Shown here: positions 2,936 to 23,500 of the stretch, in pieces
Numbering within the stretch: the stretch's first letter is position 1
Layout: each line of letters begins with the position of its first letter
From: Planctomycetota bacterium
Lineage (GTDB): Bacteria; Planctomycetota; MHYJ01; WSZJ01; JACPWG01
NCBI GenBank assembly: GCA_016197205.1
Contig: JACPWG010000185.1
Coordinates: forward strand, 62,001 to 126,000
Length of the DNA: 64,000 nucleotides
Direction of reading: 5' to 3'
Program-made: the position numbers and the translations under genes
Notes under the pieces: model-generated
What the model was told of the DNA's origin: nothing
Seen by the model: only the letters and a program-made list of their open reading frames with translations
Databases searched by the model: none

Positions 2936-5900
2936 GTGCCCAAGCTCACTTGGCTTCACCTCTCCGATCTCCACCAGGGCATGGACGGGCACGGGCGCCT
3001 CTGGCCTCGCGTCGAGCAGCTCTTTCTCGACGACCTCACCGCCCTCCACTCGAAGACCGGCCCGTGGGACGTCGTTTTCTTCACCGGCGATTTGGCCTAC
3101 TCGGGTCGGCCTTCCGAGTACGACCGGCTCCAGACCACGCTCGAACGGGTCTGGAAGCGCTTTGCCGAGCTTCGCTGCGACCCGCCACCCCTGCTCCTGT
3201 CTGTCCCCGGAAACCATGACCTGGTCTGGCCGGACGCGAATGACGACGCCGTCGAGCTGCTGACGAACCTGTGGTCGAAGCAGTCCGTCCAGGCAAAATT
3301 CTGGAAAGAGCCCGCGTGCCCTACACGCGCGTTGATCGACGAGGCGTTCTCCCCGTTCGTCCAGTGGTGGGACCAGTGGCGCGACCTCCACTCGCATCCG
3401 GCGCTGCGCGAGTACGTGCCCGGCCTCCTGCCCGGCGATTTCCGGGCGACCGTGGAAAAGGACGGCCTGCGGCTGGGCGTCGTCGGTCTCAACAGCTCCT
3501 TCCTCCAGCTTGGGAAGGGCGACTACGAGAGGAAGCTCTGCCTGGCGTCGGAACAACTCTACGGCGTCCTGGGAGAGGCCGGCGTGCCCTGGTTCGACGA
3601 CCACGACCTGTGCGTCCTCCTCACCCACCACCCGCCCGAATGGCTTGCCGCGGACGCCGCCAAAGCATTGAATGGAGAGATCGCGCCGCCCGGGCGCTTC
3701 GCGGCCCATCTCTTCGGCCACCTGCACGAGGCGACGAGCGAGACCGTTTCCATCGCCGGGGCGGCGCCTCGGCGCCGGCATCAGGCGCTCTCGCTCTTTG
3801 GCCTGGAGGACGTCGGCGCACTCGGAAACAAAGACCGCCGACACGGCTATGCGGCCTGGCAGGTGGTCGTCGACGACCCGCGCCAGACCCGTCTGCGCTG
3901 CTGGCCGCGCCAAGCGGTTCCGCTGGCGGCGGGCGGTCTCCACATCGTGCCGCACACAGGCTTCACGCTGGACGACGACCAGGGGACCGCGTCCGACCCC
4001 GTCACGTTGACCGCTTCCCGACAGGCCGCCCGAGCCGCCTTGCTCGCCCCGCCGGCGCCGGCCGCCGCGGCGCCTACGACGAAGTCCCCGGTCGGCGCGC
4101 CGGCGGGCGAGGCGCAGCGCCCCGGGCCGGCCGTCCCCCCGCCCGAGGAGGCCGACCTGCTCGTGCGGTATCGCCGCTGGGTCGAGGCCCGCTACCGCAA
4201 CATCTCGCTGATCGGTTTCGGCGAGCAGTTGCAGATCAAGCTCCCGATCGACCAGGTCTACGTGCCCCTGACCCTGTCGCTGCGCGCCGTGGACGGGGGC
4301 GCGAAGCGCAAGGATGAGACGTCGCACGAAGACGCCGATCAAGGGATCTCGATGGAACAGGCGTTTCGCCACGCGGACGCGGCGGGCCTGCGCGGGCTCG
4401 CGATGCTCGGCAACCCGGGCGCGGGCAAGACGACCGCCGCCCTGCGTGTCGGGTGGCAATGCGCCGACCCTCGGCAGGGCCCGGCCTCGCTCGGTCTCCC
4501 GGGGGACCTCGTGCCCGTGGTCCTGCGCTTGCGCTCTCTCCTCCGCACGGACGCCGGGTTGCGCGAGTTCCTGACGCGCGAAATGAAGGACCAGTATCCG
4601 GAGGACCCGGGCGCCGGCGAGCGCCTCTGGCGGCGTCCGGCGGCGGCCGGCGCGGGTCCTGGCCGTCTCTGGATTCTGGACGGCCTGGACGAAGTCGCCG
4701 ATCGTGGGGAGCGCGCCCGGGTAAGCGGCTGGATCGAGGAAATGCTCCACGACCGCCCGGAGGACCGGTTCCTCGTCACCTCGCGCGACGCGGGATACGA
4801 CGGGGACGTCGTCCTGACCGGCGGGTTCCTGGAGGTCCGTGTTCGACCGTTGACCGGGCCACGGCAGGAGGAGTTCGTTCGCCGCTGGTTCCTGACCGTC
4901 GAAACGCAGATGGCCCGCGACAAGGCGGAGGCTGCGCGGCTCGCGGAGACCCGCCGCTCCGGGCTCCTCGCCGTGCTGGCCGGGGCGGATTTCCGCAGTG
5001 CGCGCCTCATGTCCATGGCGGCGAATCCGCTGCTCCTTTCGATTCTGTGCGTGGTGTATCGCAAGGATCTGGACCTGCCGAAACGCCGCGCGGAGCTGTA
5101 CTGGAAGTGCGTGGACGTCCTGCTCGACCACTGGCGCAAGGAGTGGCGCAGGACGACCCGCCAGGCGCCGCTTGATCCGCAGGCGGCACGCGAGGTTTTG
5201 AAGCCGGTCGCCGCGTGGCTCCACGCGCAGGAAGGACGCACCGAGGCGGAGGCGAAGGAGCTTGCGGTCGAGGCGACGAAGGCGCTCTCCACGCTGTCCG
5301 CCGAAACCGGCCTCGGCACGGACGGCGCCGCCTTCCTGAAACGGGTTCGGGACGAGTCCGGGTTGCTGGTCAGCCTCGTGGCCGGCCGATACTCGTTCCT
5401 GCACTCGACGTTCCAGGAATACCTCGCGTCGTGTCACGCCTGCGACCGCCGCCATGCGGGCGACCTGGCGGGGCGGTTCGAGATGAGCTGGTGGCAGGAA
5501 GTTGCTCTCCTGGCCCTGAGCCAGGCGCCGGCCGAATGGACGGCGGAGTTCTTTGCCGGCTTGCTGGCAAGCGGCGCCGCCGAACGCCAGCCGGAGTTGT
5601 TCGCGCTTGCGCTCGTCGAGTCGCTTCATCTACCCCTCGAGCCCTTCGTCAAGACCCTGTCGGACCCGGCAGCGCCGCCGGCGAGGCTGGCACTCGTGCT
5701 GAGGAACCTCGGTGACAGGAGTGACGTGGCGCTGGTTTACGCGGCCGTGGCACTCTCGCTCCATTCGGATCCCAGGGTCGCGGGCGCTGCCGCTGAGCTG
5801 CTGCTCCGCGCCGGCAGGCATTCTGAACCCAGGGCCCTCGTCGCCGGCTCGCCCTTTGTGCATACGAAGTCGGGCATCCTACTGGTTTACGTTCCGGCTG

Positions 5901-6580
5901 GCGCTTTCGACATGGGCTCACCGAGCGAAGAGCAAGGCCGCGATTCCGATGAGCGGCGTCACCGGGTTCAACTTTCGCCGTTCTGGATCGCGAAGTTCTC
6001 GATCACGAACGAAGAGTACGCGCGGTTCTTGCATGACAACCCGTCGCACCCGGTGCCCTCGAGTTGGACGAACAGCCGATTCAATCAACCGAAGCAGCCA
6101 GTCGTGGGGGTTTCCTGGCACGATGCGACAGCGTATTGCCGCTGGGCGGGGCTGCGGCTGCCCACGGAGGCACAGTGGGAGTACGCCTGCCGCGCCGGGA
6201 CGACGACGCCATTTCACTTCGGCAGCACGATCGCGACCGACCAGGTCAACTACCACGGCAAATACCCGTACGGGGACGCACCCAAGGGGCCGGATCGGCA
6301 GACCACACTCGCCGTGGGATCGTTCCCTCCCAATGCGTGGGGCCTGCACGATATGCACGGGAATGTGTACGATTGGTGCGAGGACGTGTACGACGCGGGC
6401 TACTATAGGCACTCGCCAGCCACAGATCCCCTGTGCGCATTAGGCTCCTCGGAACGGGTGGTCCGGGGCGGCTCCTGGCGCAGCGACGCCGTCTACTGCC
6501 GCTCCGCCTATCGCTACGGGTACGGCCCCGGGAACCGCTTCGACATCGTGGGGTTCCGCCCCGCCAAGCCGTTACAATAG
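2936..6580 (+). CDS. Metallophosphoesterase-NACHT ATPase-FGE/C-type-lectin fusion (paralog 1)
   Basis: A 1214-residue STAND-type protein starting at GTG after GGGAGGGA. Residues ~3-270 are a calcineurin-like metallophosphoesterase with all motif blocks: SDLH, GDLAYSG, GNHD, LLTHH and GHLH. A Pro/Ala linker (~360-405) leads to a NACHT ATPase with Walker A GNPGAGKTT (~492) and Walker B LWILDGLDEV (~579). Then come a TSRD sensor and the SFLHSTFQEYLA motif typical of the NACHT C-terminal helical region. From ~970 an FGE-sulfatase domain begins (VPAGAFDMGSP, LPTEAQWEYACRAG, MHGNVYDWCED, VVRGGSW). I infer a defence protein: the FGE/lectin end recognises a ligand, NACHT oligomerises, and the phosphoesterase acts as effector, perhaps on nucleic acid or cyclic nucleotide. 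The last 25 codons look like a DGR variable region when compared with the paralog at 7897. Confidence 0.85.
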   Translation: MPKLTWLHLSDLHQGMDGHGRLWPRVEQLFLDDLTALHSKTGPWDVVFFTGDLAYSGRPSEYDRLQTTLERVWKRFAELRCDPPPLLLSVPGNHDLVWPDANDDAVELLTNLWSKQSVQAKFWKEPACPTRALIDEAFSPFVQWWDQWRDLHSHPALREYVPGLLPGDFRATVEKDGLRLGVVGLNSSFLQLGKGDYERKLCLASEQLYGVLGEAGVPWFDDHDLCVLLTHHPPEWLAADAAKALNGEIAPPGRFAAHLFGHLHEATSETVSIAGAAPRRRHQALSLFGLEDVGALGNKDRRHGYAAWQVVVDDPRQTRLRCWPRQAVPLAAGGLHIVPHTGFTLDDDQGTASDPVTLTASRQAARAALLAPPAPAAAAPTTKSPVGAPAGEAQRPGPAVPPPEEADLLVRYRRWVEARYRNISLIGFGEQLQIKLPIDQVYVPLTLSLRAVDGGAKRKDETSHEDADQGISMEQAFRHADAAGLRGLAMLGNPGAGKTTAALRVGWQCADPRQGPASLGLPGDLVPVVLRLRSLLRTDAGLREFLTREMKDQYPEDPGAGERLWRRPAAAGAGPGRLWILDGLDEVADRGERARVSGWIEEMLHDRPEDRFLVTSRDAGYDGDVVLTGGFLEVRVRPLTGPRQEEFVRRWFLTVETQMARDKAEAARLAETRRSGLLAVLAGADFRSARLMSMAANPLLLSILCVVYRKDLDLPKRRAELYWKCVDVLLDHWRKEWRRTTRQAPLDPQAAREVLKPVAAWLHAQEGRTEAEAKELAVEATKALSTLSAETGLGTDGAAFLKRVRDESGLLVSLVAGRYSFLHSTFQEYLASCHACDRRHAGDLAGRFEMSWWQEVALLALSQAPAEWTAEFFAGLLASGAAERQPELFALALVESLHLPLEPFVKTLSDPAAPPARLALVLRNLGDRSDVALVYAAVALSLHSDPRVAGAAAELLLRAGRHSEPRALVAGSPFVHTKSGILLVYVPAGAFDMGSPSEEQGRDSDERRHRVQLSPFWIAKFSITNEEYARFLHDNPSHPVPSSWTNSRFNQPKQPVVGVSWHDATAYCRWAGLRLPTEAQWEYACRAGTTTPFHFGSTIATDQVNYHGKYPYGDAPKGPDRQTTLAVGSFPPNAWGLHDMHGNVYDWCEDVYDAGYYRHSPATDPLCALGSSERVVRGGSWRSDAVYCRSAYRYGYGPGNRFDIVGFRPAKPLQ
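6458..6576 (+). other. Candidate DGR variable region, paralog 1
   Basis: It runs from the VVRGGSW codons to the GFRPA codons. Compared with 11943-12062, 12 codons within 6479-6547 encode different residues. In 10 of these both copies end in C and differ only at positions 1 and 2, for example CGC/TAC, AGC/TAC and AAC/TAC. Flanking codons such as TGC CGC TCC GCC and GGC CCC GGG are unchanged. This is the pattern expected from mutagenic copying of AAC codons of a template repeat. No template repeat was found in the window. Confidence 0.6.
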
Positions 6581-6666
6581 GTCCGTCTTGCAGTCTTACG
6601 ATTTGCGAAAGCGGTTGGTGACGCAGGAGTCACTGAGTGGCGTGCGCCGGGACCGGAAGCCGCAGT

Positions 6667-7896: not shown

Positions 7897-10800
7897 GTGC
7901 CCAAGCTCACTTGGCTTCATCTCTCCGATCTTCACCAGGGCATGGACGGGTACGGGCGCCTCTGGCCGCGCGTCGAGCAGCTCTTCCTCGACGACCTCAC
8001 CGCCCTCCACCCGAAAACCGGACCGTGGGACGTCGTTTTCTTCACGGGCGATTTGGCCTACTCGGGTAGCACCTCCGAGTACGAACGGCTCGACGCCACG
8101 CTCGACAAGCTCTGGAAGCGCTTCGCCGAACTCCGCTGCGACCCTTTGCCCCTGCTCCTGGCCGTCCCGGGGAACCATGACCTGGTCTGGCCGGACGCGA
8201 ACGACGACGCCGTCGTGCTGCTGACAAACCTGTGGCACAACCGCTCCGTCCAGTCGAAATTCTGGAACGAACCCAAGTGCGCCGCGCGCGCCATGCTCGA
8301 CAAGGCGTTCTCCCCGTTCGTCCAGTGGTGGGACCGATGGCGCGCCGGCCACCCGCATCGGGCGCTGCGCGAGTACGTGCCCGGGCATTTGCCCGGCGAT
8401 TTCCGGGCGACGGTGGAGAAGGACGGCCTGCGGCTTGGCGTCGTCGGCCTCAACAGCGCCTTCCTCCAGCTCGGGAAGGGCGACCACAAAGGGAAGCTCT
8501 GCCTGGCGCCGGAACAGCTCAACGGCGTCCTGAGGCCGGCCGGGGTGCCGTGGTTCGACGAGCACGATCTATGCGTCCTGCTCACCCACCACCCGGCCGA
8601 CTGGCTGGACCCGGCCGCCGTGCGCGACCTGGACGGGGAGATCGCGCCGCCCGGGCGTTTCGCCGCCCACCTCTTCGGCCACATGCACGAGTCGGTGAGC
8701 GCGACGATCTCGATCGCAGGGGCGGCCCCGCGCCGCCGGCAGCAGGCGCTTTCGGTCTTCGGCCTTGAGGCCATCGGCGCGTCCGGCACGAAAGACCGTC
8801 GTCACGGGTACGCGGCGTGGCAGGTGCACCTCGCCGATTCCGCCGGCGCCCGTTTGCGCTGCTGGCCGCGCGCCGCGACCGCGCGCTCGGCGGGCGGTCT
8901 CCACATCGTGCCGGACACGGGCTTCGACCTCCACGATGACCAGGCGACGGCCCCCGAGGCCGTCTCGCTTACGGCCTCCGCCTCCCGACAGGCCGCCCGA
9001 GCCGCGTTGCTCGCGCCACCGGCGCCTCCCGCCGCGCCGTCCCCGGCGAAGGCCCCGGTCCTGGCCCCGCCGCCCGCCGGCGGTCCGCGCCCGCCCCGCC
9101 GCGTGTTCGTCTCCTACACGGCCGAAGACCTGGTCGACCACGCCGACGTCGTGATCGACGAGATCCGAAAGCTCCAGTGGCTCGCCGTCGACCACCGCGA
9201 TTGGGCCGCCGGAGGGCTTCCGTCCGTCAGCGAATGCCGGGCGCAGGTGGCCGGATGCGACCTACTCGTGGTGCTCGTCGCTCATCGCTACGGCTGGGTG
9301 CCCACGGAGCAGGAGGGCGGGAACGGCGAGCACAGCATCGTCTGGCTGGAGGTCGAGCAGGCGTCGGCCGGCGCTCCGCCACTCGACGTCCTGCCGTTCC
9401 TGGTCGAGGACGGCGCCGATTGGCCCGTTCGCCGGATCGAGGGGCTTGGCAAGCCGGCGGTCCTGGAGCGGCTCGGCCGATTCAAGCAGTTCCTGAGCAC
9501 GCGCACCCGTCGGACGTTCACGAAGGACCCCGAGTCGCTGCGGGCGCACGTGCTCCAGGCGCTCTACGAAGCCGACCGCCGCCTCGCGGGGCGCGAGGCC
9601 TCGGGTGCCCGGCCGCCCGTCACCACGCCGGAGGAGGGCGACCCGATCGTGCGGTACCGTCGCTGGGTCGAGGCCCGCTACCGCAACGTTTCGCTGATCG
9701 GTTTCGGCGAGCAGTTCCAGATCAAGCTCCCGATCGACCGCATTTACGTTCCCCTGACCCTCTCGCTGAGTCGGGGGGCCGGCGTCGCGAAGGACAAGGA
9801 AGGGGCCCTGCACGAAGCAGCCGACCGGGGACTCTCGATGGAAGAGGCGTTTCGCCGAGCGGACGCGGCGGGCCTCCGCGGCGTCGCCCTGCGCGGCGAC
9901 CCGGGCGCGGGCAAGACGACCGCCGCCCTGCGTGTCGGCTGGCAATGCGCGGACCCCTTGCAAGGCTCGGCCTCGCTCGGCCTCGCGGGGGACCTCGTGC
10001 CCGTCGTCCTGCGCCTGCGGTCGCTCCTCCGCACGGACGGTGGGTTGCGTGAATTCCTGACGCGCGAGTTGAAGGACCAGTATCCGGACGACCCGGGCGC
10101 CGGCGAGCGCCTCTGGCGACGTCCGGCGGCGGGTCGCCCGGGACCGGGCCGGCTCTGGATTCTCGACGGCCTGGACGAAGTCGCCGATCCTCTCGAGCGC
10201 GCCCGGGTCAGCGGCTGGATCGAGCGGATGCTCCAGGACCGCCCGGAGGACCGATTTCTCGTCACTTCGCGCGACGCGGGTTACCAGGGGGATGTCGTCC
10301 TGACCACGGGGTTCCTGGAGGTGCGTGTTCAACCTCTGACCGGACCCCGGCAGGAAGAATTCGTTCGCCGCTGGTTCTCAACCGTGGAGACGCAGATGGC
10401 CGGCGCCACGGCCGAGGCTGCGTGGCTGGCGGAGACCCGCGGCGCCGGGCTTATCGCCGTGCTGACGGGGGCGGATTTCCGCAGTGCGCGCCTCATGTCC
10501 ATGGCGGCGAACCCGCTGCTCCTGTCCATCCTGTGCGTGGTCTATCGCAAGGATCTGGACCTGCCCAGGCGGCGCGCGGAACTTTACTCGAAGTGTGTCG
10601 ACGTCCTGCTCGACCACTGGCGCAAGGAGTGGCGCAGGGCGGCGGGGCTGGCGCCGCTCGACGTGAGTGCCGCCCGCGAGGTCTTGAAGCCGCTCGCCGC
10701 GTGGCTGCACACCAAGGAAGGACGCACCGAGGCCGAGTCGCTCGAGCTCGCGGCCGAGGCGACGACCGCGCTCTCCACGCTGTCGGTCCAGGCCGGGCTG

Positions 10801-12066
10801 GGAACGGACGGCGCCGCCTTCCTGAAACGCGTTCGGGACGAGTCCGGGCTGCTGGTCAGTCTCGTCGCGGGTCGATACTCGTTCCTGCACTCGACGTTTC
10901 AGGAGTACCTCGCCGCGTGTCACGCCTGCGAGCGCCGCAGCGCGGGTGACCTGGCGGAGCGCTTCAAGGCGAGCTGGTGGCAGGAAGTCGTTCTCCTGGC
11001 GCTCAGCCAGGCGTCGGCCGACTGGACGGCAGAGTTCTTCACCGGGTTGCTGGCAAGCGGCGCCGCCGAGCGCCAGCCCGAGTTGTTCGCGCTTGCGCTC
11101 CTCGAGTCGTTGCACCTGCCCCTCGAGCCCTTCGTCAAGACGTTGTCGGACCCGGCAGCGCCGCCGGAGAGGCTGGCGCTCGTGCTACGGAACTTCGGGA
11201 GCAGGACCGACGCGGCGCTGGTCTCGGCGGCCGAGGCCCTAGCGCGCCATCCGGATCCGCGCGTCGCGGGGGCCGCCGCCGAGCTGCTGCTGCGCGCCGG
11301 CAAGCTGGCCGAGCCCGGGATCCTCGTCGCAGGCTCGACCGTGGTGCATCCGAAATCGGGCATCACGCTGGTCTACGTTCCGGCCGGCGCCTTCGACATG
11401 GGCTCACCGGAAACAGAGAAGGGACACCAGTCCGATGAGCGGCTTCATCGGGTCCAACTCTCGGCCTTCTGGATGGCGAAGTTCTCGATCACGAACGAAG
11501 AGTACGCGCGGTTCTTGCACGATAACCCCTCGCAGCCAGTGCCCTCAAGCTGGACGGATAGCCGCTTCAATCAACCGAAGCAGCCGGTCGTTGGTGTTTC
11601 CTGGAACGATGCGACCGCGTACTGCCGCTGGTCTGAGCTGCGGCTGCCCACGGAGGCACAGTGGGAGTACGCCTGCCGCGCCGGGACGACGACGCCATTT
11701 CACTTCGGCAGCACGATCACAACCGACCAAGTTAACTACGACGGCAACTACCCGTACGGGGGCGCGCCCAAGGGGCCGTATCGGGAGACCACCGTGGCCG
11801 TGGGCACTCTCCCGCCCAACGCCTGGGGCCTGCACGAAATGCACGGAAATGTGTGGGAGTGGTGCGAGGACGTGTACGACGAGGGCTACTATGGGCGCTC
11901 GCCGGCCAACGATCCGTTGTGCGATTCGGGCCCGTCGGACCGGGTCGTCCGGGGCGGCTCCTGGTACTACATCGCCTTCAGCTGCCGCTCCGCCTACCGC
12001 TTCAGGCACGGCCCCGGGTACCGCCTCCACAATGTCGGGTTCCGCCCCGCCAGGCCGTTGCCATAG
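7897..12066 (+). CDS. Metallophosphoesterase-DUF4062-NACHT ATPase-FGE fusion (paralog 2)
   Basis: A 1389-residue paralog of the gene at 2936. The GTG start is chosen by exact correspondence with that gene; an in-frame upstream start near 7804 would translate the promoter. It has the same metallophosphoesterase motifs (SDLH, GDLAYSG, GNHD, LLTHH, GHMH). At residues ~400-560 it carries an extra domain starting RRVFVSYTAEDL with VSECRAQVAGCDLLVVLVAHRYG, the pattern of DUF4062, a TIR-like domain. NACHT follows (GDPGAGKTT ~670; LWILDGLDEV ~755; SFLHSTFQEYLA), then the FGE-sulfatase domain (~1145-1389). Gene 1 lacks DUF4062 and has a short linker at that point, so the paralogs differ by gain or loss of a whole module. 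The C-terminal ~25 codons are the candidate variable region. A role in phage or conflict defence is inference. Confidence 0.85.
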   Translation: MPKLTWLHLSDLHQGMDGYGRLWPRVEQLFLDDLTALHPKTGPWDVVFFTGDLAYSGSTSEYERLDATLDKLWKRFAELRCDPLPLLLAVPGNHDLVWPDANDDAVVLLTNLWHNRSVQSKFWNEPKCAARAMLDKAFSPFVQWWDRWRAGHPHRALREYVPGHLPGDFRATVEKDGLRLGVVGLNSAFLQLGKGDHKGKLCLAPEQLNGVLRPAGVPWFDEHDLCVLLTHHPADWLDPAAVRDLDGEIAPPGRFAAHLFGHMHESVSATISIAGAAPRRRQQALSVFGLEAIGASGTKDRRHGYAAWQVHLADSAGARLRCWPRAATARSAGGLHIVPDTGFDLHDDQATAPEAVSLTASASRQAARAALLAPPAPPAAPSPAKAPVLAPPPAGGPRPPRRVFVSYTAEDLVDHADVVIDEIRKLQWLAVDHRDWAAGGLPSVSECRAQVAGCDLLVVLVAHRYGWVPTEQEGGNGEHSIVWLEVEQASAGAPPLDVLPFLVEDGADWPVRRIEGLGKPAVLERLGRFKQFLSTRTRRTFTKDPESLRAHVLQALYEADRRLAGREASGARPPVTTPEEGDPIVRYRRWVEARYRNVSLIGFGEQFQIKLPIDRIYVPLTLSLSRGAGVAKDKEGALHEAADRGLSMEEAFRRADAAGLRGVALRGDPGAGKTTAALRVGWQCADPLQGSASLGLAGDLVPVVLRLRSLLRTDGGLREFLTRELKDQYPDDPGAGERLWRRPAAGRPGPGRLWILDGLDEVADPLERARVSGWIERMLQDRPEDRFLVTSRDAGYQGDVVLTTGFLEVRVQPLTGPRQEEFVRRWFSTVETQMAGATAEAAWLAETRGAGLIAVLTGADFRSARLMSMAANPLLLSILCVVYRKDLDLPRRRAELYSKCVDVLLDHWRKEWRRAAGLAPLDVSAAREVLKPLAAWLHTKEGRTEAESLELAAEATTALSTLSVQAGLGTDGAAFLKRVRDESGLLVSLVAGRYSFLHSTFQEYLAACHACERRSAGDLAERFKASWWQEVVLLALSQASADWTAEFFTGLLASGAAERQPELFALALLESLHLPLEPFVKTLSDPAAPPERLALVLRNFGSRTDAALVSAAEALARHPDPRVAGAAAELLLRAGKLAEPGILVAGSTVVHPKSGITLVYVPAGAFDMGSPETEKGHQSDERLHRVQLSAFWMAKFSITNEEYARFLHDNPSQPVPSSWTDSRFNQPKQPVVGVSWNDATAYCRWSELRLPTEAQWEYACRAGTTTPFHFGSTITTDQVNYDGNYPYGGAPKGPYRETTVAVGTLPPNAWGLHEMHGNVWEWCEDVYDEGYYGRSPANDPLCDSGPSDRVVRGGSWYYIAFSCRSAYRFRHGPGYRLHNVGFRPARPLP
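11943..12062 (+). other. Candidate DGR variable region, paralog 2
   Basis: This is the counterpart of 6458-6576. Codons between 11965 and 12033 carry residues YYI, F-S, F-RH, Y and LHN where paralog 1 has RSD, V-Y, Y-GY, N and FDI. Just upstream, about 80 bases (11637-11718) are identical to paralog 1 (6151-6232), so the variation is local and not general divergence. Confidence 0.6.
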
Positions 12067-12154
12067 GTCCGTGTTACGGTCTTACCGTCTGCGATTGCGG
12101 TTGGTGACGCCGGAGTTGCCGAACGGCGTCCGCCGGGGCGGGTGGACCGAAAAC

Positions 12155-12288: not shown

Positions 12289-12534
12289 ATGCTCTACCGC
12301 GTCCTCGACCTGAGGTATTGCGAGAAGAAACAGACCATCGACGATGAACCCCTGCAGCGCCTGCTGCACGGGCATGAGACGGTCGAGATCACCCAGCAGT
12401 TCTACCGGCACGAGGGGGTTCCCCACCGCCTCGACACACGCGACGGCGAAGACGGTCCATCCGTCGGCCAGTCGCCCCGCCTGAAGGCGGAACTCCGAAC
12501 GGGGTCGCAGTACCTCGCGCATGTTGCAAGGTGA
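12289..12534 (+). CDS. Truncated small ORF, possible DGR accessory (HRDC-type) remnant
   Basis: An 81-residue frame from ATG 12289 (MLYRVLDLRYCEKKQ). The first ~45 residues read like a real protein: a strand, then DDEPLQRLLHGHETVEITQQFYRHEGVP split over two elements. That order (MxYxxF/L, then LxxFLxxHxVLxV, then a strand) resembles the N-terminus of the small HRDC-domain proteins often found beside DGR reverse transcriptases. After VPH the frame degenerates into low-complexity sequence and then into the GTAGTTCCGCC-type repeat at 12477. I therefore read it as a broken gene; the family assignment is tentative and rests on pattern memory only. Confidence 0.35.
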   Translation: MLYRVLDLRYCEKKQTIDDEPLQRLLHGHETVEITQQFYRHEGVPHRLDTRDGEDGPSVGQSPRLKAELRTGSQYLAHVAR

Positions 12535-12789: not shown

Positions 12790-14403
12790 GTGAGCGACTC
12801 CTCGCCGCACGACCCGCGGCACGTCTCCCAGGCGCCAACGCTCGCCCCGGCGAAAGGCGCGCGCCCGCGCGACTTCGACGTCCGCGACCTCTACGAAGGG
12901 CCGGCCGGTCGCCCCGGACTCCCCGGCGCCCCCGCGTCCGCCGGCATCCCGCTGGCCGAGAAGCTCCGCCAGGCCTACTTCTGGATCGTCAACCACGCCA
13001 TCATCACGCCCTACTACGACATCGAGTTCAACGACCCAGCCGCGGGCCCGCCCCGCGCCTTCCGCTTCGGCGGAGCCGGTACCGAGGTCCGCCTCCCCAC
13101 CGACGCCTCGTTCTCCAGCTTTGTCCTGCTCCCCATCCTCACGTTCGCCGTCCGCAAGCGCGCGCTCTTCATCGGCGGGCCCGGTCGCGGCAAGACCGCG
13201 AGCGCGATCCTTATGGGCATCCTCGCGGGCTACTCGCCGGAAGAGGTCCGCCGCGGCATCCAGCACGGGCAGCCCCAGATGACGCTCGCCGACCTCCTCG
13301 GCAACCCCCTCCCGCGAGACCTCGTCGAAGCCAAGGACATGGAGAGCATCAAGATCGCCTGGCGCCGCTGGATCGGCATGCGGGTCAAGATCGTCGATGA
13401 GTACAACCGCATCCCCACCCGTACGCAGTCGGCCCTGCTCACGCTCCTCGCGGACGGCTACGCGGAAATCCTCGACCAGACCATCACCAGCCCCGACAGC
13501 GCGTGGTTCCTCACCGCGAACGACGACCTCGGCGGCGGCACCTACCAGGTCATCGAGGCGCTCAAGGACCGGATCGATGTGGTCATCAAGGCGCTCAATT
13601 TCAACCCGCGCTTCCTCCAGGAGCTTCTCGATCGGGTGGAGCGCGAGCTCAAGCCCGAAGAGCTGGTCCCCCACGAGATCGTTTTCTCCGAGCATGAGCT
13701 GGACGCGATCCATCAGGAGATTCTCCACGTCCCCATCCCGCCGAAGGTCCGCCGCTCGCTCGAGTTTTTCGCCGCGCAGTTCGACTTCTGCGACCTCGCC
13801 GCGCGCGAGGTGGAGTACAAGACCAAGGACACGATCCGCATCGCGGGGAAGACGCTGTCCGCCACCTGCGCGAACGACTGCGGCCGGGACAAGGTGAAGG
13901 TCCTTTGCAGCCAGACGGAAAACGGCCTGTCCGTCCGCGCGCTCCTCACGCTCCTCCACTACGTGAAGGCCCTCGCGTGGTTCCGCGGGCGCGCCGAAGT
14001 CTCGATCGAAGACGTGCGCCAGCTCGTGCCGTGGGTCCTGCACGAGAAGCTCGTCCAGAATCCCACGACCCCTTACCTCGACGTCGCCGGGAACGCGATC
14101 TACCGGATCGACCGGATCGCGTGGATCCGGCGGGCGTTCGACCTGTCGTGCGAAGAGTACGCCCGGCTCGGCCTCGAGGCCGACGACCCGGTGGTCCCCA
14201 TCGAGAACGCGTTCGAGCGCGGCCTGGACGGCGTGCCGGAGGGGGAGGTCCGGAAGCGCATGAACGCGATCGAGACCCATCTCGAAAAGCTCGCGAAGGC
14301 GACGAAGCTGTACGCGCACGTGCAAAACGACGTGCTCAAGCTGAAGTATTTTCACCAGCGCTACTCGAACTATCTGAGGTGGCTGCTCTCGTGCAAGGCG
14401 TGA
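12790..14403 (+). CDS. MoxR-family AAA+ ATPase
   Basis: A 537-residue ATPase starting at GTG after GGAGG. Walker A is GGPGRGKTAS (~residues 130-140), Walker B with an unusual Tyr is VKIVDEYNRIP (~200), and the sensor region is FLTANDDLGGGTYQV. RTQSALLTLLADGY before the sensor is typical of MoxR proteins, chaperone-like ATPases that remodel partners bearing vWA domains. The protein is longer than the usual ~320 residues, with an N-terminal ~110-residue extension and a helical C-terminal domain that contains a Cys pair (SATCANDCG). It overlaps the next gene by four bases (GTGA). The vWA partner lies at 18150, separated by an unrelated two-gene pair. Confidence 0.85.
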   Translation: MSDSSPHDPRHVSQAPTLAPAKGARPRDFDVRDLYEGPAGRPGLPGAPASAGIPLAEKLRQAYFWIVNHAIITPYYDIEFNDPAAGPPRAFRFGGAGTEVRLPTDASFSSFVLLPILTFAVRKRALFIGGPGRGKTASAILMGILAGYSPEEVRRGIQHGQPQMTLADLLGNPLPRDLVEAKDMESIKIAWRRWIGMRVKIVDEYNRIPTRTQSALLTLLADGYAEILDQTITSPDSAWFLTANDDLGGGTYQVIEALKDRIDVVIKALNFNPRFLQELLDRVERELKPEELVPHEIVFSEHELDAIHQEILHVPIPPKVRRSLEFFAAQFDFCDLAAREVEYKTKDTIRIAGKTLSATCANDCGRDKVKVLCSQTENGLSVRALLTLLHYVKALAWFRGRAEVSIEDVRQLVPWVLHEKLVQNPTTPYLDVAGNAIYRIDRIAWIRRAFDLSCEEYARLGLEADDPVVPIENAFERGLDGVPEGEVRKRMNAIETHLEKLAKATKLYAHVQNDVLKLKYFHQRYSNYLRWLLSCKA

Positions 14404-18149: not shown

Positions 18150-20057
18150 ATGGCCAAGTCCTCCTCGCCTCCGCAACGCGCCGATGAAGCCGACCCGCTC
18201 CCGCCGGACGCGCTCACCGCCGCCTGGCGCGCCGCCTGGCCCGAGGCGCTCGCCGCGTGGTCGTCATTCACGCAGCTTCGCGAGCCCGCCTACTTGACCA
18301 CGAAGGCGGACGCGAAGGCTCACGGCATGGCCGGCGAGCTGGCCGCGATCCGGCTGCGCGACCAGGTGATCGCGGTGAATCTGCACCTGCTCCGGGAACG
18401 GGGGCTCGAGCGGCGCTGGTCGCGCGAGATCCTCGCCCACGAGATCGGGCACCACGTCTACGTCCCCGGCAACCTGACGGAGCACGCCCGCCTCATCGCG
18501 GCCATGCGGCGCATCCTCGTCACGTTCCCTGTCGACGTCACGCACATGGTCGCGAATCTGTACGCCGATCTCCTCGTGAATGACCGCCTGCAGCGCCGGC
18601 CCGAGCTGGAGCTCGTCGGCGATGCGCAGGCGCGGCCGAAGCTGGATTTCCCCGGCCTCTACCGGCGACTCGGCGAAACGGCGCCGGGGGCATCGGCGCA
18701 AGCGGGCGTCCCGCCGAGCCAGGTCTGGCTGCTCTACCTGCGGATCTGCGACCGCCTCTGGCTCTTGCCCAGCGACGCGCGGCTCACGCCGCCGAGTCTC
18801 CCGCCGGAGCTCGAGGCGGACGCGCTCTTTCTCGCGCGTCTGGTCCGGTCCTTCGCCGCCGACTGGCTGCGCGGCGCGCGTCGCTTCGCCAGCGTCCTCT
18901 ACCCCTATCTCCTCACGGATCAGAAAGCGGGCCAAGCGCCCGGCCTCCTTCGCGCCGGCCTGCACGACACGCGTGGGGCCTGCGGCGCGGCGCCCGGCGA
19001 GGCGGACGCCGACGCCGTGCCCGATGGCCTCGCGGGAGTCGATCCGACCGAGAACGCGGACCTCGACGATTTCGAGGACGACGCCACCGACCCGCTCCAT
19101 GCGAAGCGTTCCGCGCGCAAGGACCCGCCTACGCCCGCGCCCGCGAACACGGCGCCGACCGCCGAGGGCCAGGGACGCCCCGGCGCGCAATTCCGCGAGC
19201 CCCACGAGTACGGCGAACTCCTGAAAGCCCTCGGCCTCGACCTCGACGCCCACGAGGTGACCACCCGCTATTATCGCGAGCGTGCGCTCCCGCACCTCCT
19301 TCCCTTCCCGGCGAGACGGGCGCCGCGTGCGCGCGAACCGCTCGCCGAAGGGCAGGAGCCGTGGACCCCGGGCGAGCCGCTCGAGGCGATCGATTGGCTC
19401 GGCAGCGTTCTCGCCTCCCCGCACGTCATTCCCGGCGTGACGACGGTCCAGCCCGTTTTCGGGGACACCCCCGGCGCGGATCCGGCGAAGGTCCCCGTGG
19501 ACCTCGACATCTACGTGGACTGCTCCGGCAGCATGCCGAACCCCGCCGTCTCCGTGAGCTACCTCGCGCTTGCGGGCGCGATCCTCGCCCTCTCCGCGCT
19601 GCGCGTCGGGGCGCGCGTGCAGGCGACGCTCTGGTCCGGCGCGCGCCAGTTCGACACGACCGGCGGCTTCGTCCGCGAGGAGAAGCGCATCCTCGGCATC
19701 CTGACCGGCTACCTCGGCGGAGGCACGGCCTTTCCCCTCCACCTCCTCCGCGACACCTACGAGGCGCGAAAGCCCGCGGATCCGCCCGCGCACATCGTCG
19801 TGATTTCGGACGACGGAGCGGACACCATCCTCCTCAAGGACGAGAAGGGGACCCCCGGCGCGAAGCTCGCGCAGCGCGCGTTCGAGCGTGCCCGCGGCGG
19901 CGGCACGTTCGTGCTGAACCTCCCCGCCGTCGATAGCTGGAAGGCCGCGCCGACGCTCCGCGCGATGGGCTTCCGCATCCACCCGGTCCAGGCGTGGGAG
20001 GACCTCGTCGCCTTTGCGCGCGCCTTCGTGCGGGAGACGTACGAGGGGCGGTCGTGA
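18150..20057 (+). CDS. HExxH metallopeptidase-like plus vWA domain protein (MoxR partner)
   Basis: A 635-residue protein. Residues ~95-105 carry LAHEIGHHVY, an HExxH zinc-peptidase-like site. An acidic linker (~290-330) follows. The last ~200 residues form a vWA domain with the MIDAS motif DCSGSMPNP and the later VVISDDGADT loop. Proteins joining a peptidase-like domain to vWA are standard partners of MoxR ATPases, and the MoxR gene lies upstream at 12790. The gene has its own promoter, fits a leaderless transcript, and is coupled to the next gene by GTGA. A conflict-system role, with the ATPase gating the peptidase or vWA part, is inferred from the association. Confidence 0.8.
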   Translation: MAKSSSPPQRADEADPLPPDALTAAWRAAWPEALAAWSSFTQLREPAYLTTKADAKAHGMAGELAAIRLRDQVIAVNLHLLRERGLERRWSREILAHEIGHHVYVPGNLTEHARLIAAMRRILVTFPVDVTHMVANLYADLLVNDRLQRRPELELVGDAQARPKLDFPGLYRRLGETAPGASAQAGVPPSQVWLLYLRICDRLWLLPSDARLTPPSLPPELEADALFLARLVRSFAADWLRGARRFASVLYPYLLTDQKAGQAPGLLRAGLHDTRGACGAAPGEADADAVPDGLAGVDPTENADLDDFEDDATDPLHAKRSARKDPPTPAPANTAPTAEGQGRPGAQFREPHEYGELLKALGLDLDAHEVTTRYYRERALPHLLPFPARRAPRAREPLAEGQEPWTPGEPLEAIDWLGSVLASPHVIPGVTTVQPVFGDTPGADPAKVPVDLDIYVDCSGSMPNPAVSVSYLALAGAILALSALRVGARVQATLWSGARQFDTTGGFVREEKRILGILTGYLGGGTAFPLHLLRDTYEARKPADPPAHIVVISDDGADTILLKDEKGTPGAKLAQRAFERARGGGTFVLNLPAVDSWKAAPTLRAMGFRIHPVQAWEDLVAFARAFVRETYEGRS

Positions 20058-21061: not shown

Positions 21062-23500
21062 ATGCCCGACGAACCCGGTGGAATCAAAGTCGCAGGCGGC
21101 TACCTGCGCGCCGCCCTGATGGGGCTCGTCGAGGAGATTCCGCTCGTCGGCAAGATGGTCGTGCGGGTCGTCGAGCACCATCAACTGCACCCGGGCCGGC
21201 CGAACGACAAATTGGAGCGGTCGGTTCGGAAGCTCATGACGGCGACGTCGCGCGGGGACCCCGTCCGCACCCAGGCGTTGGCGGCCCTTCCGGAGCCCGT
21301 CGTCACCGAGGCGGTGCGCGAGGCGTCGCACCTGTTGAGCGCCCCCGAGCGGACGAGGATCGAGAGGGCCGCGGCGGACGCCGCCCGGCTCCCGGCCGCC
21401 GTCGCCCCCGAGGCCTTCATGAACGCCGTAGCCGAAGTCCTGGCCTCCTCCCCCGCGGTCCGGCACAGCCTCCTCAGCCGCGCCCACGCGCGCAGCGGGC
21501 GGCCCGCGCCCTTGCCTCGCGGGGAGGTCATCGACGGCCGTTTCGAGATCGAAGAGTTCCTGGGTGAAGGCGGCATGGGGGTCGTGTACCGGGCGCACGA
21601 TCGCCGCTTCGAATCGCACGTCGCGCTCAAGCTGCTCTCCCGCGACCTCGTCCAGGACGAGGCCGCGAAGACGCGCTTTCGCAAAGAGGTCAGCCTCGGC
21701 CTCCGCCTCTCGCACCCGAACATCGTCCGCGTCCACGATCTCGGGGAGGTCGGCGGGCAGCTTTACATGCACATGGAGCTGGTCGACGGGTCCACGCTCC
21801 GCGCCCTCCTTGGCGACGGTCCGCTCCCCGTGCCGCGCGCCCTCGAGATCGCCCGCGGCTTCCTCGGCGGCCTCGCGCACGCCCATAAAAAAAATGTGCT
21901 TCACCTGGACGTCAAGCCGGAGAACATTCTCCTCGGCCCGGAAGGATACGTCGCGCTCGGGGACTTCGGTCTCGCGCGCGCCCTCGGCGGGGACGCCTTC
22001 CGCTCGCTGGTGGCGGGCGCGGGCACGCCGTACTACATGGCCCCCGAGCAGCTCAAAGGGGATCGGGAGCTCGACACGCGCGCCGACGTCTTCGCCGCGG
22101 GCATGGTCCTTTACGAAATGTTCACCGGCGAACCGGCGATGGGCGCCTTCGAACCGCTACCGGACGAAGTGCCGCCGATCCTGCGGGCGGCCGTGCAGCA
22201 GGCCCTCTCCCAGCGACGCGAGAAGCGTCCGCCGGATGCGATGGCGCTCCTAGAGTCCGTCGCGGCGGCCATCGCCTCGTCGGCCGCGTCGCCCGCCTCC
22301 CCCGCGCCGATCGTCGTCGTCGCGCCCCCGTCGGCACCGGGACCCGCGGAGGAGCTGGACTTCGCGTTCGTCTCCGCGCCGCCGCCGTCCCCGCCCGCTC
22401 CCCTCCCGGCTGCGTTCGCGAGGCCGGCGCCACCCGTCGAGGCCCCGAGCGAGGTGATCCTCAGGTTTCCGCCCGGGCACCCTCCGGCCGACGAAGGCGA
22501 GAAGACCCTCGTGGACCTCCCGCCCGACCCCGCCACGTTCATCGACGTGACCCGGATCTCGAGCAGCGTGCCCGGCGCCTGCCCCGCCAAGAGTGACGAC
22601 GAGGCCACGGTGGTGGATCCGCCTTGGACCGACCTCGTGCTTCACGCGCCTCCGAAGGTCACGTCGCCTCCGCCCGCCGGCAAGCGACTGCCTCCGCTCC
22701 TTTCCGCGCCCGCGTCCAATCTCACGCGGTCGCGCCGAAACGAACAGGGGTTCGACGAGTTCGTCCACGAGCGGACCGGGCTGGTCCTCGTCCAGATCCC
22801 GAGAGGCGAGTCCTGGATGGGCAGCGACGACGGCGCGAAACCCGAGACGCCCGTCCATCCGGTGGCGTTGCGGGCGTACCTGATCGGGAAGCACGAGGTG
22901 ACGAACGCGCAGTACCGGGCTTTCTGCCGCGAAACGGGGCACGCGCCGCCACCGCCCCCGCTCGACGGCTGGGGCTATACGCGCTGTTTCGAGGACTCGA
23001 AGTACGATAACCATCCGGTTGTGAACGTTGCTTGGCAGGACGCGGTCGACTTCTGCGCCTGGGCGGGTCTGCGGCTCCCAACCGAAGCGGAGTGGGAGAA
23101 GTCCGCCTCCTGGGACGAGCGGGGCGGGCGCGCGCGCACGTACCCGTGGGGAGAAGAGGCGCCCACCCAGCGGTTCGCGAACTTCGGGAAGGCCAAGGGC
23201 CGCGGCGAGTACACGCGGGGCGTGACGTCCTGTCCGGCGGGCGCGAGTGCCTACGGGGTCGTCGATCTCGCGGGCAACGTCTGGGAATGGTGCGCGGACT
23301 GGTACGACGAGGGCTACTACGCCTCCTGCGGCGACGGGACGCCCAACCCCGCGGGTCCGGCGACCGGCACGATGCGCGTGGTGCGCGGCGGGTCGTGGCT
23401 GAACTCCGACCGGTACCTCCGCTGCGCCTACCGCAACGGGCGCGATCCGCTGAATTGGTACATCCTGGTCGGCTTCCGGGTCGCCGCCCCCGTGCCCTAG
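21062..23500 (+). CDS. Ser/Thr protein kinase-FGE-sulfatase fusion (1)
   Basis: An 812-residue protein. Residues 1-150 form a helical region with a hydrophobic Gly-rich start (YLRAALMGLVEEIPLVGK) shared only with the next gene. A Hanks-type kinase follows at ~160-400: FLGEGGMGVVYRA glycine loop, VALKLL, catalytic loop LHLDVKPEN, DFGLAR, MAPEQ. The catalytic loop is HLD instead of HRD, so it is a non-RD kinase, but the catalytic Asp, Lys and Asn are kept. A Pro/Ala-rich linker (~400-550) joins an FGE-sulfatase domain (~558-812; MGSDDGAKPE, LPTEAEWEKSASW, NVWEWCADWYDEGYY). Kinase output with an FGE/lectin-like sensor is the likely design; its C-terminus does not show the NNC pattern of the two NACHT paralogs. 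Confidence 0.85.
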   Translation: MPDEPGGIKVAGGYLRAALMGLVEEIPLVGKMVVRVVEHHQLHPGRPNDKLERSVRKLMTATSRGDPVRTQALAALPEPVVTEAVREASHLLSAPERTRIERAAADAARLPAAVAPEAFMNAVAEVLASSPAVRHSLLSRAHARSGRPAPLPRGEVIDGRFEIEEFLGEGGMGVVYRAHDRRFESHVALKLLSRDLVQDEAAKTRFRKEVSLGLRLSHPNIVRVHDLGEVGGQLYMHMELVDGSTLRALLGDGPLPVPRALEIARGFLGGLAHAHKKNVLHLDVKPENILLGPEGYVALGDFGLARALGGDAFRSLVAGAGTPYYMAPEQLKGDRELDTRADVFAAGMVLYEMFTGEPAMGAFEPLPDEVPPILRAAVQQALSQRREKRPPDAMALLESVAAAIASSAASPASPAPIVVVAPPSAPGPAEELDFAFVSAPPPSPPAPLPAAFARPAPPVEAPSEVILRFPPGHPPADEGEKTLVDLPPDPATFIDVTRISSSVPGACPAKSDDEATVVDPPWTDLVLHAPPKVTSPPPAGKRLPPLLSAPASNLTRSRRNEQGFDEFVHERTGLVLVQIPRGESWMGSDDGAKPETPVHPVALRAYLIGKHEVTNAQYRAFCRETGHAPPPPPLDGWGYTRCFEDSKYDNHPVVNVAWQDAVDFCAWAGLRLPTEAEWEKSASWDERGGRARTYPWGEEAPTQRFANFGKAKGRGEYTRGVTSCPAGASAYGVVDLAGNVWEWCADWYDEGYYASCGDGTPNPAGPATGTMRVVRGGSWLNSDRYLRCAYRNGRDPLNWYILVGFRVAAPVP

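Follow-up and report, generated by a model that had tools for sequence, protein, structure and literature searches.

Two neighbouring genes in a 64,000-nucleotide stretch of a Planctomycetota genome (the window: assembly GCA_016197205.1, contig JACPWG010000185.1, here C12, positions 62001-126000) end in variable regions (VRs) of a diversity-generating retroelement (DGR), the template of which is remote and lies on another contig. Both encode NACHT proteins with a C-terminal FGE-sulfatase (FGE) domain: target 1 at 2936..6580 (+, 1214 residues) and target 2 at 7897..12066 (+, 1389 residues). We consider it very likely that these regions were rewritten in trans from the remote template, and that the variable module was grafted from a kinase-FGE cassette of the type found on contig C113 onto a NACHT gene, which was then duplicated, the C113 cassette having decayed since. 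The genome that was searched comprises 9.1 Mb in 197 contigs and is 90.8% complete.

The preliminary description of this DNA had proposed a matching variable region in the two paralogs, and this was confirmed. VR1 (6464..6559, +; RGGSWRSDAVYCRSAYRYGYGPGNRFDIVGFR) and VR2 (11950..12045, +; RGGSWYYIAFSCRSAYRFRHGPGYRLHNVGFR) cover the final 32 codons of the frame that encodes the FGE domain. They differ from each other at 19 of 96 bases, 14 of which are adenines in the template identified on C113, and the flanking coding DNA of the two genes differs mostly at third positions. A search for reverse transcriptases (RTs) matched C113, where the sequence that follows the RT reads RGGSWNNNAVNCRSANRNRNEPGNRDNNVGFR in one frame; the core of this template repeat (C113:11172-11267, minus) lies about 55 bp past the final stop of the RT-remnant frame. 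When the genome was searched with this stretch, five gene copies were retrieved: the two window genes and those on C25, C115 and C155. Relative to the C113 template, 13/23 A and 4/73 non-A sites are changed in VR1 (A-biased change, P 4e-7) and 12/23 A and 4/73 non-A sites in VR2 (P 2e-6), template adenines being replaced by all three other bases. Pooled over four VRs, the changes affect 49/92 A versus 23/292 non-A sites, a comparison for which a P-value would be overstated since the VRs are related.

A remote template had been predicted correctly: the one reached through the RT remnant matches both window genes, the changes being specific to adenines. The same holds for a codon that reads GGG in one copy and AGG in the other (6518-6520 / 12004-12006): it had been traced to an AGG template codon, and the C113 template has AGG at that position. 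The idea of one DGR with two targets is too narrow, in that the same template family also fits the kinase-FGE genes on C25 and C115 and, less well, the one on C155. The VR of the C155 gene (C155:22410-22554) carries a 39-base insertion with respect to the template and may no longer be a working target. Directly after the stop codon of target 1 the alignment revealed a conserved stretch (6581..6630, +) that is common to the loci of target 2 (12067..12115, +), C25, C115 and C155. A partial FGE match at C155:47263 was considered as a possible template and rejected, as it is not adenine-rich.

Since these residues also vary among ordinary FGE paralogs, their variation alone is not diagnostic, and we therefore used the conservation of the non-A bases as the control. 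The template was reconstructed from all copies, which favours the VRs; however, the controls lie far behind them, and the outcome does not change with the raw C113 template. Of the 69 non-A sites VR1 keeps 67 and VR2 68 (68, 67, 66 and 63 for the four VRs), versus 42-50 in 14 other FGE sequences, among which the template on C100 described below. The kinase-FGE genes at 21062 and 23811 had been put forward as an internal control. They serve as such at the non-A sites, of which they keep 50/69 and 49/69, but not elsewhere: the 23811 gene departs from the C113 template at 24/73 non-A sites in addition to 19/23 A sites.

The RT remnant directly before the C113 template contains the motifs YMDD and LPIGNLTSQ. 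It is 5'-truncated and lacks the N-terminal part, with homology that begins at about KAAPFRD behind a stop, and it is interrupted by an in-frame TAG near the C-terminus. In relatives from the same phylum the RTs are longer and uninterrupted and a template-like repeat is found at the same place, i.e. 200-250 bp past the RT core in genomes G058, G037, G092, G072, G079 and G094, compared to about 220 bp on C113. None of the NCBIfam models labelled the C113 RT as a DGR enzyme (the best match, a group II intron RT, was far below the cutoff), and its assignment to a DGR therefore rests on the neighbouring template and the loci of the relatives. In seven of the relatives' loci an HRDC-type protein is encoded just upstream of the RT, and HRDC is a known DGR accessory (PMC10053308). 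A remnant of such an accessory gene (12289..12432, +; 48 residues) directly follows VR2 in the window. It is 93.8% identical to the first 48 residues of a homolog on C155, which is longer but itself truncated (Pfam HRDC 24.3 bits, cutoff 23.8).

The C113 cassette is broken in this assembly. A kinase gene upstream of the RT (L004:14089-17085, minus) shares 80% identity with the C155 kinase-FGE protein, a DGR target, but in place of the FGE/VR end it has unrelated sequence from a different gene with a frame break. An N-terminal, frame-broken fragment of another DGR RT is located at C74:54800-55181 (L230, minus), where it directly follows a kinase-like gene without an FGE end. The RT on C178 (L001) was set aside, as by eye it lies between Cas2-like and Cas1-like frames and is probably CRISPR-associated.

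A second DGR template was identified on C100 (C100:54175-54587; L214:12176-12588), 314 bp past the VR of a local NACHT-FGE gene and close to the contig end. A TIR-NACHT-FGE gene on C22 is its remote target (VR at L217:8834-8929, minus). Both VRs match this template at 70/70 non-A sites, while 17 and 16 of the 26 A sites differ, even though upstream of the VR the identity between the two genes is just 73%. No RT is present on the assembled C100 contig. This set shows cleanly that remote homing took place recently in the lineage.

Several observations weigh against the history outlined above for the window genes. No intact DGR RT was found in the assembly, remnants on C113 and C74 being all that was retrieved; the search was repeated with a full-length RT of a relative because Pfam RVT_1 misses some DGR RTs (e.g. 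no match for L057). The C113 template differs at several non-A sites from the template implied by the VRs, and the C113 junctions could partly be assembly errors. In addition, the 110 bases downstream of VR1 and VR2 contain no hairpin with a perfect stem of at least 6 bp and a loop of 3-8 (chance rate 13-19%). A hairpin or cruciform just past the VR has been demonstrated for BPP-1 and its phage relatives, i.e. for phage-type DGRs (PMC3240598), and has not been shown to define all DGRs. The C113 template is a drifted copy or a close sibling, and not the pristine current template. The DGR interpretation of the preliminary description is supported, with the qualification that the C113 RT is broken and the C113 template is no exact match to the one implied by the VRs.

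A DGR might also act on the window genes to this day, with an intact RT and a cleaner template in the unassembled part of about 9%, or with C113 representing a damaged form of a locus that other cells of the population carry intact; we rate this as a serious possibility that falls somewhat short of an even chance, and it competes only with the decay part of our proposal. The non-A sites of the C100/C22 set are pristine, which implies that some DGR RT worked recently in the lineage, and the bases of the VR-implied template depart from C113 as if another copy had been used. Moreover, intact and degraded variants of one DGR locus coexist in the system described by Dore et al. 2024 (PMC10907252). 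Against this, silent non-A changes are seen in the window VRs (one and two) and in the C115 VR (six), in contrast to the C100 family, which is pristine, and the RT searches yielded remnants only. Present DGR activity at the window is unproven, and the system may well be inactive there.

The divergence between the two window genes separates by codon position. For the whole gene, the segment immediately upstream of the VR and the VR itself, it amounts to 0.25, 0.32 and 0.09 at third positions, whereas at first and second positions it is 0.11, 0.12 and 0.24, respectively. Likewise, a window gene and the C25 kinase gene diverge by 0.43-0.45 at third positions upstream and by 0.06-0.09 in the VR. 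It is true that gene conversion among paralogs makes silent sites uniform and that one graft between paralogs has taken place (see below), so that the 3' ends could in principle have been evened out in this way, with the C113 'template' as a truncated FGE pseudogene. We nevertheless consider this highly improbable: conversion would have evened out the A sites too, whereas these are the most different (0.24 at first and second positions in the VR versus 0.09-0.12 outside), it does not agree with the adenine bias of the VRs, and relatives likewise carry a copy in the corresponding position behind the RT. The pattern of low silent and high non-silent divergence within the VR, opposite to that of the flanks, excludes ordinary gene conversion as well as ordinary selection. 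Diversifying selection on a binding loop in ordinarily diverging FGE paralogs, with no retroelement involved, is more improbable still, for despite the variation of the same residues in ordinary paralogs selection alone would not hold the silent sites of the VR still, and it leaves the match at 67-68/69 non-A sites and the non-coding, AAC-rich copy beside the RT unexplained.

The breakpoint of the graft lies inside the FGE domain. The nucleotide identity between target 2 and the C25 kinase-FGE gene is about 0.50 up to the LPTEAQWEYACRAG motif and 0.80-0.87 beyond it. Conversely, the identity of target 2 to its ortholog in the only family-mate genome is about 0.74 before the graft point and falls to 0.43-0.59 after it. 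This switch, in which the identity to the C25 gene climbs to 0.84, places the approximate graft point at 11644..11690 (+) in target 2, and in target 1 the partner identity switches at the LPTEAQWEYACRAG motif as well (6158..6200, +). The family-mate ortholog, which shows 63% protein identity over the upstream part, ends in RGGAWNSDEVALRCAYRGGNRHLARNADFGFRVVM and not in a VR of the C113 template family, and no clear DGR RT was found in the family-mate genome. It appears that the VR half moved from a kinase-FGE cassette onto the NACHT gene, rather than in the opposite direction, before the duplication in the window.

The following series of events best accounts for these data. A kinase-FGE DGR cassette of the C113 type would have been the source of the VR module, which recombination within the conserved FGE motif would have joined to a NACHT gene that was subsequently duplicated. 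RNA transcribed from a template located elsewhere in the genome would be converted by the RT into cDNA with errors at adenines, and this cDNA would replace the matching 3' end of each window gene in trans. In this process about a dozen codons, which are probably exposed on the protein surface, would be randomised (AAC to NNC) and all other bases reset to the template. The C113 cassette would later have decayed by loss of the target end and by 5'-truncation and interruption of the RT. Homing at the window would accordingly belong to the past, or depend on an RT that is missing from the assembly.

The FGE-sulfatase domain has undergone a large expansion in the genome (68 matches). A third set of six FGE genes (two on C195 and one each on C39, C139, C53 and C74) is alike at third positions and differs at first and second positions in VR-like ends. 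Its template was not found in the assembly, and it is probable, not proven, that this set is DGR-diversified. Across the second and third sets, NACHT is accompanied by N-terminal domains such as TIR, caspase, Mrr and phosphorylase; caspase, Mrr and phosphorylase are found in the third. We tentatively suggest, at somewhat less than even confidence, a dispersed repertoire of about 13 FGE-sensor proteins in three template families, namely effector-NACHT-FGE proteins with metallophosphatase, TIR, caspase, Mrr-nuclease or phosphorylase N-termini, plus kinases. The variable module might move between receptors by recombination inside the FGE domain and so bring old receptors under adenine mutagenesis in trans, as a bacterial NLR repertoire with sensors that are hypervariable, shared and transplantable.

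The window targets are 77-83% identical and display the tripartite layout of effector, NACHT and sensor: in Pfam both contain Metallophos, NACHT and FGE-sulfatase (184-188 bits for the latter), to which target 2 adds DUF4062. The VR is found at the C-terminus of the FGE / C-type-lectin fold in both proteins, the membership of this fold being based on Pfam and on PDB sequence matches, the relatives in the latter including TvpA. Both are NLR-like receptors, with a candidate metallophosphatase effector, a NACHT switch and a C-terminal FGE/C-type-lectin sensor that, by analogy, may recognise antigens in an immune context. The closest long matches of the receptor stem from planctomycete and other metagenome-assembled genomes. 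Near the targets, a MoxR-like AAA ATPase is encoded together with a protein that weakly matches vWA-like domains (12790-14403 and 18150-20057), with Schlafen-AlbA2 and ParA-like genes in between. This neighbourhood recalls parts of the MoxR-vWA ternary conflict systems.

The case documents well that hypermutated sensor modules are common to several immune-like receptors across one genome, and it combines steps that are rarely seen together, in that a NACHT receptor acquired a variable module, the receptor was duplicated and the parent cassette decayed. It also shows that DGR targets can be overlooked when a search covers only the surroundings of the RT. With receptors and template in one assay, the diversification of bacterial NLR-like sensors in trans could be tested directly.

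To our knowledge, TvpA of Treponema denticola and the DGR variable protein of Thermus aquaticus are not NACHT fusions. They share the FGE-type C-lectin fold, and sequence similarity, with the FGE domain of the window proteins (PDB 2y3c; 5nxl, listed as serine/threonine kinase). Dispersed kinase targets with a C-type-lectin (CLec) domain, far from the RT but matched to a DGR template, have been described in cyanobacteria together with decayed cassettes (Vallota-Eastman et al. 2020, PMC7517822), whereas in the genome studied here kinase proteins and NACHT receptors draw on the same template family. The survey of Roux et al. 2021 (PMC8144416) was by its authors' account blind to remote targets. 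The closest parallel is Thiohalocapsa PB-PSB1, in which DGR-diversified CLec/FGE sensors on NACHT proteins (notably DGR 3 and DGR 7, the DGR 7 target with a metallophosphoesterase domain) occur with paired targets, trans service of remote targets, loci with a broken RT or template, shuffling of N-terminal domains and MoxR-type AAA genes nearby (Dore et al. 2024, PMC10907252). In contrast to that system, the window targets lack a vWA domain, target 2 has DUF4062, the template is on a different contig with neither RT nor template at the targets, and both the FGE-internal graft point and a VR-less ortholog can be seen. DGR-diversified NACHT sensors and remote targets have thus been published before, and the window pair adds a member with an unusually readable history.
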